Program-made: the position numbers and the translations under genes
Shown here: positions 4,172-6,389 of the stretch, piece by piece
Position numbering within the stretch: the stretch's first letter is position 1
Layout: each line of letters starts with the position of its first letter
Notes under the pieces: generated by a model
Told to the model about the DNA's origin: nothing
Database searches by the model: none
Seen by the model: the letters and a program-made list of their open reading frames with translations, nothing else
Source of the DNA: Mycobacterium sp.
Lineage (GTDB): Bacteria > Actinomycetota > Actinomycetes > Mycobacteriales > Mycobacteriaceae
Direction: 5' to 3'
Length of the DNA stretch: 10,314 nucleotides
Assembly (NCBI GenBank): GCA_018882545.1
Contig: VERS01000024.1
Location: forward strand, 1-10,314

Positions 4172-4969
4172 CTAATCCAGCGCGGCCGCCATCTGCTCTC
4201 GCGGCGCCGGTCGGCCTGTGAATTGTTCGACCTGACTGAATGCTTGGTGCAACAGCATCTGCAGGCCTCCGATCACCTCGCCGCCGGATTCGGCGACTGC
4301 CCGGGCCAGCGGGGTCGGCCACGGGTCGTAGATCGCGTCCAGCAGCAGCGGGGTCCCGGCCAACGTCCCGGCGAGCCCGGCGGCCGCGTCGGCCGGGAGG
4401 GTGCTGACCACGACGTCGGCCCGTCGTGCTGCAGCACTCAGTTCCGGATCGGTGATGTCGCAGAAGTCGGTCGCCATGCCCACCCGGGTGCCGAGGTCGA
4501 GCAGGCGGGCGGCTTTGTCCCGGCTGCGGGCCACCACGGTGATCGCCGTGACGCCCAACCCGGCCAGTGCCACCACGGCCGCCGGCGCGGTGCCGCCCGA
4601 GCCCAGCAGGATGGCACGATTCAGTTCGCGGCCGCCCAGCGCACCGGTCACCCCGTCGATATCGGTGTTGTCCGCTCGCCAGCCCGCCGCGGTGCGCACC
4701 AGGGTGTTGGCCGAACCGACCAGTTCAGCCCGTTCGGTGCGTTCGTCGGCGAACTGCAGGGCGGCGAATTTGCCCGGCATGGTGACCGATAACCCGACCC
4801 ATTCAGGTCCCAAACCGCTTACTAGAGAGGGTAATTCGTCGGCGGTACATTCGATCCGCTGGTAGGTCCAGTCCTCGAGTCCCAGCGCCCGGTAGGCCGC
4901 AAGGTGCAGTTGCGGGGATCTGGAATGCGCGACCGGCGAGCCGAGTACAGCCGCCCTATGCGCGTTCAT
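4172..4969 (-). CDS. aroE: Shikimate dehydrogenase
   Basis: AroE reduces 3-dehydroshikimate to shikimate with NADPH (step 4 of the pathway). The 265 residues compare with about 269 in M. tuberculosis Rv2552c. The substrate domain shows SPVAHSRSPQLH (11-22), the catalytic Lys67 in VTMPGK, Asn88 in GSANTL and the catalytic Asp103 in ADNTDIDG. The cofactor domain shows a glycine-rich GSGGTAPA (123-130) and VVARSRDKA, whose arginines suit the NADPH 2'-phosphate. GLQMLLHQ near the C-terminus (235-242) holds the conserved Gln. I chose ATG 4969 because it would form an ATGA overlap with the mltG stop if the adjacent repeats were removed; GTG 4972, one codon earlier, is equally possible. No good ribosome-binding site precedes either. 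The tandem repeats end immediately upstream. Codons around residues 46-55 are unusual for the window. Confidence 0.95.
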   Translation of the reverse strand: MNAHRAAVLGSPVAHSRSPQLHLAAYRALGLEDWTYQRIECTADELPSLVSGLGPEWVGLSVTMPGKFAALQFADERTERAELVGSANTLVRTAAGWRADNTDIDGVTGALGGRELNRAILLGSGGTAPAAVVALAGLGVTAITVVARSRDKAARLLDLGTRVGMATDFCDITDPELSAAARRADVVVSTLPADAAAGLAGTLAGTPLLLDAIYDPWPTPLARAVAESGGEVIGGLQMLLHQAFSQVEQFTGRPAPREQMAAALD

Positions 4970-4975
4970 CACCGT

Positions 4976-5086
4976 TCATCGCCCGGGCCCCATTGGGCTC
5001 TTCACTGCGTTCATCGCCCGGGACTTGATTGGGCTCTTCACTGCGTTCATCGCCCGGGACTTGATTGGGCTCTTCACTGCGTTCAT
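4976..5086 (-). CDS. Repeat-encoded small ORF 2 (36 residues), speculative
   Basis: Beginning at the ATGA overlap with the first small ORF, this frame crosses three repeat units. The 36-bp B units are exactly 12 codons, so they stay in frame and encode MNAVKSPIKSRA twice. The following 35-bp A unit encodes MNAVKSPMGPGR and then stops at TGA 4978-4976. The stop lies three bases before GTG 4972 and six bases before ATG 4969, in the same frame as aroE. A third overlapping frame (MNGDERA, 4979-4956) starts at the same ATGA and ends inside aroE. The arrangement suits termination and re-initiation onto aroE. Nothing shows that the peptide itself has a role. Confidence 0.25.
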   Translation of the reverse strand: MNAVKSPIKSRAMNAVKSPIKSRAMNAVKSPMGPGR

Positions 5087-5121
5087 CGCCCGGGCCCCAT
5101 TGGGCTCTTCACTGCGTTCAT
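5083..5121 (-). CDS. Repeat-encoded small ORF 1 (12 residues), speculative
   Basis: An ATG overlaps the mltG stop (ATGA at 5121-5118) and opens a 12-codon frame, MNAVKSPMGPGR, ending in a TGA that again overlaps the next ATG. It lies entirely in repeat unit 4. There is no sign of a separate function; if translated, it would mainly carry ribosomes from mltG towards aroE. There is no homology or ribosome-binding-site evidence, so it is listed for its arrangement only. Confidence 0.25.
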   Translation of the reverse strand: MNAVKSPMGPGR

Positions 5122-6389
5122 CGCCCGGAGTTGAGGAAGCCGCTCTCCAAGGCCTTGTCGCGGTTGGCCAGGTGCTCCTGGTAGTCGCTGGTGAACAGCG
5201 TCGTTCCCTGAGCGTCGATCGTCACGAAGTACAGCCAGTCGCCCTCGTCGGGACGTTCAGCGGCGGCCAGTGCGTCTTCCCCGGGCGAGCAGATCGGGGT
5301 GGCCGGCAGACCGGGCATGGCGTAGGTGTTCCAGGGGGTTTCCTTGGCCCGGTCCTCATCGGTGGTGGCCACCTCCTGGCGGTCCAGCGGATAGTTGACC
5401 GTGGAGTCGAACTCCAACCGGTCATAGTCGCTGGCCAGCCGGTTGTAGATGACCCGGGCCACCTTGGCGAAGTCCACCGGCTGAGCCTCCTTCTGCACCA
5501 GCGAACCGACGATGAGCACCTCGTAGGGCGAGATGTTCAGCGTCGTCGCGGCATCGAGGATGCCGCCCTTGACGTAACGGTCGGCGCTGTCGCCGACCAG
5601 CTTGGACAAGATTTCCTTCGGTGACGCCGACGGGTTGATGTTCCAGGTGCCCGGAGCGATCAGACCCTCGAGTCGGCGGTGGCTCTGGCCTTGGGTGCCG
5701 GCACCCTTGACCGCCCACTCCGGCACGTTGAGGGACTCCAGGGTGCCCTCCTCGGCGGCAGCCTGGAGATCCGCAGCCGACAAGCACTTCTCGGTGCCGT
5801 TGAGATTCGCACAGCTTGCGTTGGCGATCAGGGTGAAAATACCCGGGTTGACGGTGCCCGAACCCACTGCCGTGATGTCGTCGAGTTGCTTGCCCTCGGG
5901 GATGACCAGCTTGCCGACCCGCGATTTGGGGTCGGTCAACATCTGCACGGCCGTCGCGGCCGGAATCTGGGTACGCAGTTTGTAGTACCCCGGCTGGATC
6001 GCAGCCAGTTCGGCGTTACCCGAGGCCGCGCCGATAAACATATTGACGTCGCCGATGACGTCCTTGTTGACGAGGTCCTGGGCGATCACCGATCCGGAAT
6101 CGCCCGGTTTGACCTCGATGATGATGTCTTCCTTGCCCCCGCCGGTGTAGTCCTTGAGCAGCTCCGGCCCTCCGAACAGCCTCGGACCCAGCAACCAGAC
6201 TCCGACTGCGAGGGCTGCCAGCACACCGAGCACGGCCAGGATCTTGCCGCGGCCGCCGCCGGTTTGGGCGGCACGGCGACCCGACGAGCCGACTGCCCGC
6301 GGCTCGACGCGGTCGGGCCCACCGGCCATCCCGGGATTCTTCGCGGGCTTCTTCTCGGGCCGCTCAGGTTTCTTCTCGGGCACTGTCAC
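5118..6389 (-). CDS. mltG: Endolytic murein transglycosylase (YceG family)
   Basis: MltG is a single-pass membrane enzyme that cuts nascent glycan strands outside the membrane and so limits strand length. The 423-residue protein starts with a Lys/Pro-rich cytosolic segment (about 1-48), then a transmembrane helix (about 49-68, ILAVLGVLAALAVGVWLLG). A small LysM-like region follows (about 88-155, with I-I-I-E-V-K-P-G-D-S), then the catalytic YceG domain to the end. The catalytic glutamate, matched to Glu218 of E. coli MltG, is Glu301 in SLVQKEAQ. Conserved features after it are VIYNRL (313-318), LEFDSTVNY (325-333), the PWNTY and GLPATPICSPG stretch (352-370) and WLYFV (385-389). Two cysteines, 193 and 202, could form an exported disulfide. 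The start is GTG 6389, six bases after the ruvX stop, with GGAAAGAG upstream; GTG 6383 is an alternative. The likely counterpart is Rv2553c. Its stop overlaps the repeat array. Confidence 0.93.
   Translation of the reverse strand: MTVPEKKPERPEKKPAKNPGMAGGPDRVEPRAVGSSGRRAAQTGGGRGKILAVLGVLAALAVGVWLLGPRLFGGPELLKDYTGGGKEDIIIEVKPGDSGSVIAQDLVNKDVIGDVNMFIGAASGNAELAAIQPGYYKLRTQIPAATAVQMLTDPKSRVGKLVIPEGKQLDDITAVGSGTVNPGIFTLIANASCANLNGTEKCLSAADLQAAAEEGTLESLNVPEWAVKGAGTQGQSHRRLEGLIAPGTWNINPSASPKEILSKLVGDSADRYVKGGILDAATTLNISPYEVLIVGSLVQKEAQPVDFAKVARVIYNRLASDYDRLEFDSTVNYPLDRQEVATTDEDRAKETPWNTYAMPGLPATPICSPGEDALAAAERPDEGDWLYFVTIDAQGTTLFTSDYQEHLANRDKALESGFLNSGR

Follow-up and report, generated by a model that had tools for sequence, protein, structure and literature searches.

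A probable mobile-looking, MIRU-related short element, tandemly expanded at the mltG–aroE junction of a Mycobacterium genome

Between the genes mltG and aroE of a Mycobacterium sp. (assembly GCA_018882545.1, contig VERS01000024.1), four short direct repeats lie exactly where one reading frame stops and the next one starts. What are these repeats, and how did they come to lie at such a place? The window, i.e., the whole stretch of 10,314 nucleotides that was analyzed, carries on its minus strand, in this order, alaS, ruvX, mltG, the array, aroE, a type IV prepilin peptidase-like gene, aroC, aroK, aroB and aroQ. These genes were identified by Pfam, and the symbols follow common usage for the matched Pfam names. 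Repeats known at such positions in mycobacteria are the mycobacterial interspersed repetitive units (MIRUs). They are described as units of 40–100 bp (PMC2734929) that overlap the start and stop codons of their neighbors and couple their translation at −4 nt (PMC12548453). It is argued below that the array is probably a tandemly expanded, short and mobile-looking element of mycobacteria that is related to MIRUs.

On the minus strand, the interval between mltG and aroE is occupied by four tandem units (4980–5121), starting at 5121, 5086, 5050 and 5014. Unit 1 (5087–5121) and unit 4 (4980–5014) are 35 bp long and alike, while unit 2 (5051–5086) and unit 3 (5015–5050) are 36 bp long and share a variant ending, CAAGTCCCGGGCG. 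TRF reports 4.4 copies with a period of 36 and 93% matches over 4973–5128, at a score of 256, whereas no other array in the window scores above 47. Upstream of the array, mltG (minus strand, 5118–6389) encodes a YceG-like lytic transglycosylase (MltG/YceG PF02618, 1.5e-65), with a stop frame that is open for 425 codons upstream. Its last codon is CGA and its stop, TGA at 5120–5118, is the TGA of the ATGA with which unit 1 begins. The last seven bases of mltG ahead of this ATGA, CCGGGCG (minus strand, 5122–5128), are repeated exactly at unit ends, in the manner of a target duplication. Unit 1 contains an ORF of 12 codons that ends in a TGA, with a 4-nt overlap between this stop and the ATG of unit 2. 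Units 2, 3 and 4 are in frame with one another and form an ORF of 36 codons that stops at TGA 4978–4976. Past unit 4, the minus-strand sequence ATGAACG (4973–4979) is either a partial fifth unit or the original junction. It is followed by aroE (minus strand, 4172–4972; shikimate dehydrogenase, AroE PF08501, 3.7e-20), for which the candidate starts are GTG 4972 or ATG 4969, 3 or 6 nt past the final stop of the chain of short ORFs. These coordinates, the TRF result and the Pfam matches on both flanks bear out the sequence-only reading insofar as it placed a four-unit tandem array exactly at the mltG/aroE stop and start. The same reading had put the two genes 152 bp apart and had expected an exact ATGA overlap after deletion of the array. 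The distance is correct up to ATG 4969, but four whole units span 142 bp, and once these were removed the TGA of mltG would precede the GTG by 3 nt or the ATG by 6 nt. The exact overlap is one possible ancestral state, but not a forced one.

Other copies had been expected in the same genome. None was found beyond the four units with a degenerate core pattern allowing up to three mismatches, in an assembly (G000) of 3.28 Mb that is 84% complete and divided over 755 contigs. A DNA search with the whole array gave matches in three of 61 relatives, the window genome included. The exact 17-base core of the unit, ATGARCGNAGNGAAGAG, is present in 46 of 396 genomes of the genus, at one to three loci per genome, and in none with a reversed control pattern. 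The proposed new family is in this respect not lineage-specific, as it is not confined to one lineage. A longer pattern, run against named genomes, yielded 29 stretches, with matches in M. hodleri (Mycolicibacterium) strains S5.20 and DSM 44183, in Mycolicibacterium sp. CH28, in the Mycobacterium sp. strains URHB0044 and IS-1742, in mycobacterial or actinobacterial MAGs and in scattered others. Thirteen stretches come, by their titles, from outside the Actinobacteria; one of these (L097) falls on a stop/start overlap that involves an ORF of 150 codons or more, and at L078 the ORF has 108 codons. In the MAG of an uncultured actinobacterium (L100, outside the site set used below), a 35-bp unit with a 7-bp flanking repeat, CGGGGCG, can be seen by eye before the next ATGAACG.

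To describe the placement of the copies, a set of 62 sites was compiled, consisting of 61 sites with the exact core and one variant (G013); two lie at contig ends, and 60 were used. At 43 of these 60 sites, the TGA of the unit serves, in a −4 overlap, as the stop of an upstream sense ORF with 150 codons or more, and in 41 of these 43 the last codon is CGA. Two of the 43 may owe their place to chance: L113, at a gene start that we take to be MsrA-like, and L138, where the open frame may be fortuitous, the upstream gene ending a few nt earlier. Four further sites have a 1-nt overlap (TGATGA). At the other 13, the upstream ORF ends 7–58 nt earlier, without a −4 or −1 overlap; in six of them (L116, L121, L122, L127, L135 and L142) the gap holds, by eye, a degenerate unit or a unit-like stretch. 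That other copies would also lie at stop/start junctions is thus true of most sites, but not of these 13. Several junctions recur, as identified by HMM on one example each: mltG–aroE, hisF–hisI, bagA–bagB, a TldD/PmbA pair, hrcA–dnaJ, thiG–lipase, sulfite reductase–PAPS reductase and, in addition, a TIGR03084 gene at its 3′ end. At the four sites of the latter kind, no downstream gene to be coupled is obvious by eye. Tandem spacings below 60 bp (n = 24) all fall between 33 and 38 bp, i.e., 35 bp eight times, 36 and 38 bp six times each, and 34 and 33 bp twice each.

The arrangement of the ORFs suggests that the units possibly pass the ribosome from one gene to the next. This relay was followed as a chain from the first ATG, at the 46 of 62 sites with a recognizable next gene. 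A rule demanding exactly −4 at every step was too strict, and each restart was allowed at −4 to +8 nt. The chain reaches the next gene at 43 of the 46 sites, compared to 32.0 expected from dinucleotide shuffles of the junctions (P = 6e-7). Because this control is weak for single short units, for which the null rises up to 1.00, the excess rests mainly on the multi-unit and long sites; the relay is intact at 14 of 15 multi-unit sites, compared to 8.5 expected. The three misses are all three hrcA–dnaJ sites, where dnaJ seems, by eye, to have a ribosome site of its own. The form of the chain depends on the unit length modulo 3, as a remainder of 2 gives separate mini-cistrons, a remainder of 0 gives fusion and a remainder of 1 gives reading through two units (L137). 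Translational coupling is stated to work best from −4 to +3 nt (PMC12548453). The placement and coupling geometry are MIRU-like, as had been supposed. Single or tandem short repeats lie between co-directional mycobacterial genes, with the −4 nt overlap and a coupled internal ORF. The many copies per genome that mark MIRUs were not found, G000, which is incomplete, having a single locus.

As an alternative, the units might encode a functional N-terminal extension or a functional small peptide. In G180 (36-bp units) and in the pncA-like gene of G183 (33-bp units) they are indeed in frame with the next gene. However, unit length is not constant modulo 3 from one site to the next, and the array of the window is out of frame with aroE, which argues that no peptide is kept; this explanation is extremely improbable. 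For AroE itself, an N-terminal extension was rejected on account of the frame, while it is true in G180. Another function might be regulatory, with a promoter, terminator or structured RNA tuning aroE by copy number. There are precedents, as senX3–regX3 MIRUs are reported to drive regX3 (PMC4213456) and, in M. tuberculosis, a correlation between repeat number and fpg mRNA is reported (PMC2734929). Yet the RNA of the array folds no better than shuffled sequences (z +1.2), 182 of 200 of which are equally or more stable, and there is no match to a sigma-70-like promoter or a terminator in 4900–5250, in a scan that covers mycobacterial promoters poorly. Regulation of this kind is unlikely.

The history of the array can be approached by comparing filled and empty junctions. 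For mltG–aroE, 65 loci were collected, six of which were added for carrying the pattern; 58 are fully readable. The AroE motif is missing from four, the junctions of which were nevertheless retrieved, one being cut by a contig end, and the MltG motif from three. Empty sites in relatives had been predicted, some with a plain ATGA overlap, and such overlaps occur in G032, G011 (L017), G005 (L181) and G078 (L167). In the sister genome G003, which is empty as well, mltG ends in CGA-TGA and a GTG follows 1 nt later. A putative insertion point can be seen in close relatives, where empty sites read CGC-TAG and filled sites CG|ATGA...CG|C-TAG. The empty site of G077 reads GCACGC-TAG-TCATGAAAGCC, and the second unit of the filled G316 ends in GCACGC-TAG-TCATGAAAGCC, with the same flank; likewise, the empty site of G067 reads GGCACGC-TAG-TGG, and the unit of the filled G004 is followed by GGCACGC-TAG-TGA. 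Since an ATGA is absent from this point in the empty forms of G077 and G067, it seems to come with the element, which suggests that CGC-TAG becomes CGA-TGA with the protein end unchanged. The earlier idea of an insertion at a pre-existing ATGA has to be revised accordingly: the ATGA is better seen as borne by the element than as its required target.

A similar comparison is possible at a pncA-like gene, whose identity scores below the NCBIfam cut-off. In M. hodleri S5.20, three in-frame 33-bp units replace the start codon of this gene (L249), just after a GATACT box resembling a leaderless promoter, and DSM 44183 has a plain start (L253). Ten such loci were found, three of them without the motif; one of the seven readable loci is filled and six have no units.

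For a tree of MltG C-termini, 62 of the 65 mltG–aroE loci were entered and two were dropped as too short, leaving 60 rows. Rows count as empty if a GAAGAG-type element is lacking within 70 nt; among them are a few with other inserts, such as G071. The seven short-element rows, five of which were added for carrying the element, need seven changes, and the four extended rows need four. Empty rows stand beside most element rows, and the labels are no more clustered than shuffled labels. The clade of the window copy has four members, of which the other three are empty. A separate gain is the simplest reading of the window copy; repeated loss may be the explanation instead. At single sites, gain and loss are indistinguishable.

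Insertion might also be random, without a preferred target, and copies might survive only at stop/start junctions. The copies seen would then be those that keep both genes, and some copies do lie at gene starts or past a last gene. On the other hand, the same CG precedes the ATGA in a −4 overlap at 41 of 60 sites, and a small number of junctions is occupied repeatedly in separate clades, as the MltG tree shows for mltG–aroE. Survival without target preference is a serious possibility, short of an even chance.

Whether the proposed element spread by insertion can be judged from the bases on either side of it. The bases before the first ATGA recur at the unit end over at least 6 bp, exactly, at 17 of 60 sites, including the 7 bp of the window, compared to 3.3% of pairs that combine two different junction clusters. 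Matches average 4.23 bp versus 3.06 (sd 0.13), a value reached in none of 5000 permutations, with sites at the same junction in related species not being independent in this test. When the junction clusters are taken one by one, the mean match lies above its null in 14 of 23, so that some of the junctions carry the signal. All 17 clear matches measure 6–9 bp, and body and repeat add up to 35 or 38 bp in 15 of them. Units of 35 and 38 bp leave a remainder of 2 modulo 3, which would return an 8-bp repeat to the reading frame of the old gene end. In M. hodleri S5.20 (G183), two loci unrelated to each other share an identical 24-nt body but differ in their 8-bp repeats, CCCGGGCG and AGCGGGTG.

Longer kin of about 52–56 bp, repeat included, also exist. 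Thirty loci were read at the TIGR03084 gene end, and in four genomes a longer relative (ATGAGCGC...GAAGAG...) is present there. Every one of the four duplicates 10 bp of the target in which it lies (GCCCCGGTCG twice, GCGCCGGTCG and GCGACGGTCG), whereas matches across different targets reach only 6–7 bp. A fifth longer relative at this gene end (G022, L264) has a 13-bp repeat by eye. In L264, L281, L287, L289 and L290, all at the 3′ end of TIGR03084, target repeats of 10–13 bp are followed by another ATGAG or TGAGCG, about where the stretch that was read ends. For the extended mltG–aroE copies, the flanking repeat is 13 bp in G069 and 7 bp in G006; the match of G026 lies inside a hairpin and is uninformative, and the 4 bp of G013 count as none. 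At senX3–regX3 of G183, G035 and G224 (L185, L189 and L200), the first ~20 bases of regX3 are present twice, on either side of a short GGAAGGCACG-type segment, which looks like a further insertion with a long target repeat.

Arrays may also arise without any mobile element, when slippage copies a piece of the junction into a local minisatellite. Local expansion is clear in our material, units being identical in G183 and G224 and near-identical in G180. At mltG–aroE of G071 (L024), the point at which the element is found in relatives is taken up by a 16-bp unit, ATGAAGACTCCGCGCG, present three times and consisting almost wholly of the gene's own end. Local slippage cannot, however, account for one body at numerous junctions that are unrelated, or for its two occurrences within a single genome, and it is very unlikely as the full explanation. 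The array resembles mycobacterial VNTR or minisatellite loci in its head-to-tail, near-identical copies, but the short units stem from a dispersed element and not from local sequence.

Among the closest known systems are the canonical MIRUs, the class of the 53/77-bp repeats of senX3–regX3. Like these, the short units are tandem units in sense orientation, with an ATGA overlap at both ends, a short ORF of their own and coupling of the neighbors. A canonical reference was read at senX3–regX3 of a 4.5-Mb genome (L214), with four copies 53 bp apart; the underlying search gave 30 gpm1 loci, 28 of which have the regX3 marker. With up to two mismatches, the canonical core is present in 62 of 118 genomes of the genus, reaching tens per genome, and with up to three mismatches it has three matches in the window genome. 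One of its contigs (C528, 2195–2274; L247) holds two tandem 53-bp canonical MIRUs between rpsN and rpsH, genes named by eye, and a third copy lies on C217. The core is also found at senX3–regX3 of a 6.3-Mb genome (L215), contrary to the statement that MIRUs between these genes exist solely in M. leprae and the M. tuberculosis complex (PMC4213456).

The window array might be nothing but such a canonical MIRU, shortened. It has the same placement and the same −4 ATGA chain, and the short unit at hisF–hisI aligns with the canonical 3′ half, core GAGCGCAGCGATGAGGAGGA, at scores of 31 and 30 (0 of 400 shuffles as good) and, with a third canonical unit, at a score of 20 (27 of 400), all picked from 15 comparisons. 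At a TldD/PmbA-type junction, seemingly the same one at which other genomes hold the short unit, a canonical MIRU can be seen by eye (L240), so that both kinds seem to be present there. In contrast, the window units match the canonical core GATGCAGAGCGNAGCGATGAGNAGGAG weakly or not at all, 29–363 of 400 shuffles being as good in six comparisons. Short units measure 33–38 bp instead of 53 or 77 bp, are flanked at some of the sites by ~8-bp target repeats and occupy one to three loci per genome. Most canonical copies read end in GAGGAGGAGYGGCGC a few bases before the next start, with GAGGAG ~6–9 nt ahead of it; this motif, and any AGGAG just before the next start, is absent from the window units. 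Canonical copies in turn lack a clear flanking repeat. In a similar test on 31 loci of 53-bp MIRUs, the mean match is 2.77 versus 2.47 (199 of 3000 permutations), and the two matches of at least 6 bp both lie beside another copy. The assertion that the unit is not a canonical MIRU therefore stands, on length as well as on sequence, and simple shortening is rather unlikely. Kinship of the short units with MIRUs is nevertheless likely, judging by intermediates such as the hisF–hisI units.

In other respects the short element recalls MITEs and small non-autonomous insertion elements, with direct target repeats of ~8 bp, empty sites and one body at unrelated places. Target-site duplication is clear only in the minority of sites given above. 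Unlike MITEs, the element has a body of just 27–30 bp and a sense orientation at gene ends, and no terminal inverted repeats were seen. In 5052–5135 of the window, the search for these gave nothing beyond GC palindromes and pairings between the GCCCGGG unit ends, and no mobility gene or transposase was recognized by Pfam among the 10 window proteins scanned. We know of no parent transposon and no mobility gene for this element.

The anatomy of the array, the genus-wide placement, the empty sites, the flanking repeats at part of the sites and the open relay, all read directly from the sequences, can be brought together as follows. A unit of the proposed element would comprise a body of ~27–30 bp, beginning with ATGARCGNAGNGAAGAG, and ~8 bp copied from the landing site. 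By means of a staggered cut, it would insert at a point two bases inside the last codon of the upstream gene (CG|N-stop). The ATGA of the body would provide a new stop in place, changing CGN-stop into CGA-TGA, which is still arginine followed by a stop, and the duplicated 8 bp would restore the old gene end and its stop ahead of the next gene. In the window, a ribosome ending mltG would restart on the overlapping ATG, read the 12-codon peptide and stop at the next ATGA. It would then read the 36 codons of units 2–4, stop, and restart on aroE 3–6 nt further on. As the stop/start is carried along and the gene end is duplicated, both proteins and their coupling would be left nearly unchanged by insertion and by tandem growth, and the units are presumably tolerated rather than useful. 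Against this proposal, 43 of 60 sites have no clear repeat of at least 6 bp and 9 of 23 clusters do not exceed the null; decay or expansion of inner copies would have to explain these sites. A 27-bp body without terminal inverted repeats would, moreover, be odd for a transposon.

A broader generalization is offered more tentatively, as an idea that is about as easily doubted as believed. The short units could represent a distinct class of tiny mobile elements that insert by a staggered cut in the last codon, duplicate 8–10 bp, carry their own stop and start and are harmless to their neighbors. The class would consist of the body of ~27–30 bp and of longer, hairpin-bearing kin, with canonical MIRUs as larger descendants or cousins in which the duplication is no longer visible. 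A mycobacterial class of 33–38 bp with target duplications was not found described in the titles and abstract openings searched.

For the question of how MIRUs spread, a related shorter class with visible target duplications, pairs of filled and empty sites in close relatives and two recent-looking copies in one strain provides a testable model of insertion. It would illustrate how an insertion does next to no harm when it brings along a stop and start and duplicates the old one. In addition, the arrays form a natural series of mini-cistron chains for studies of translation re-initiation in mycobacteria.
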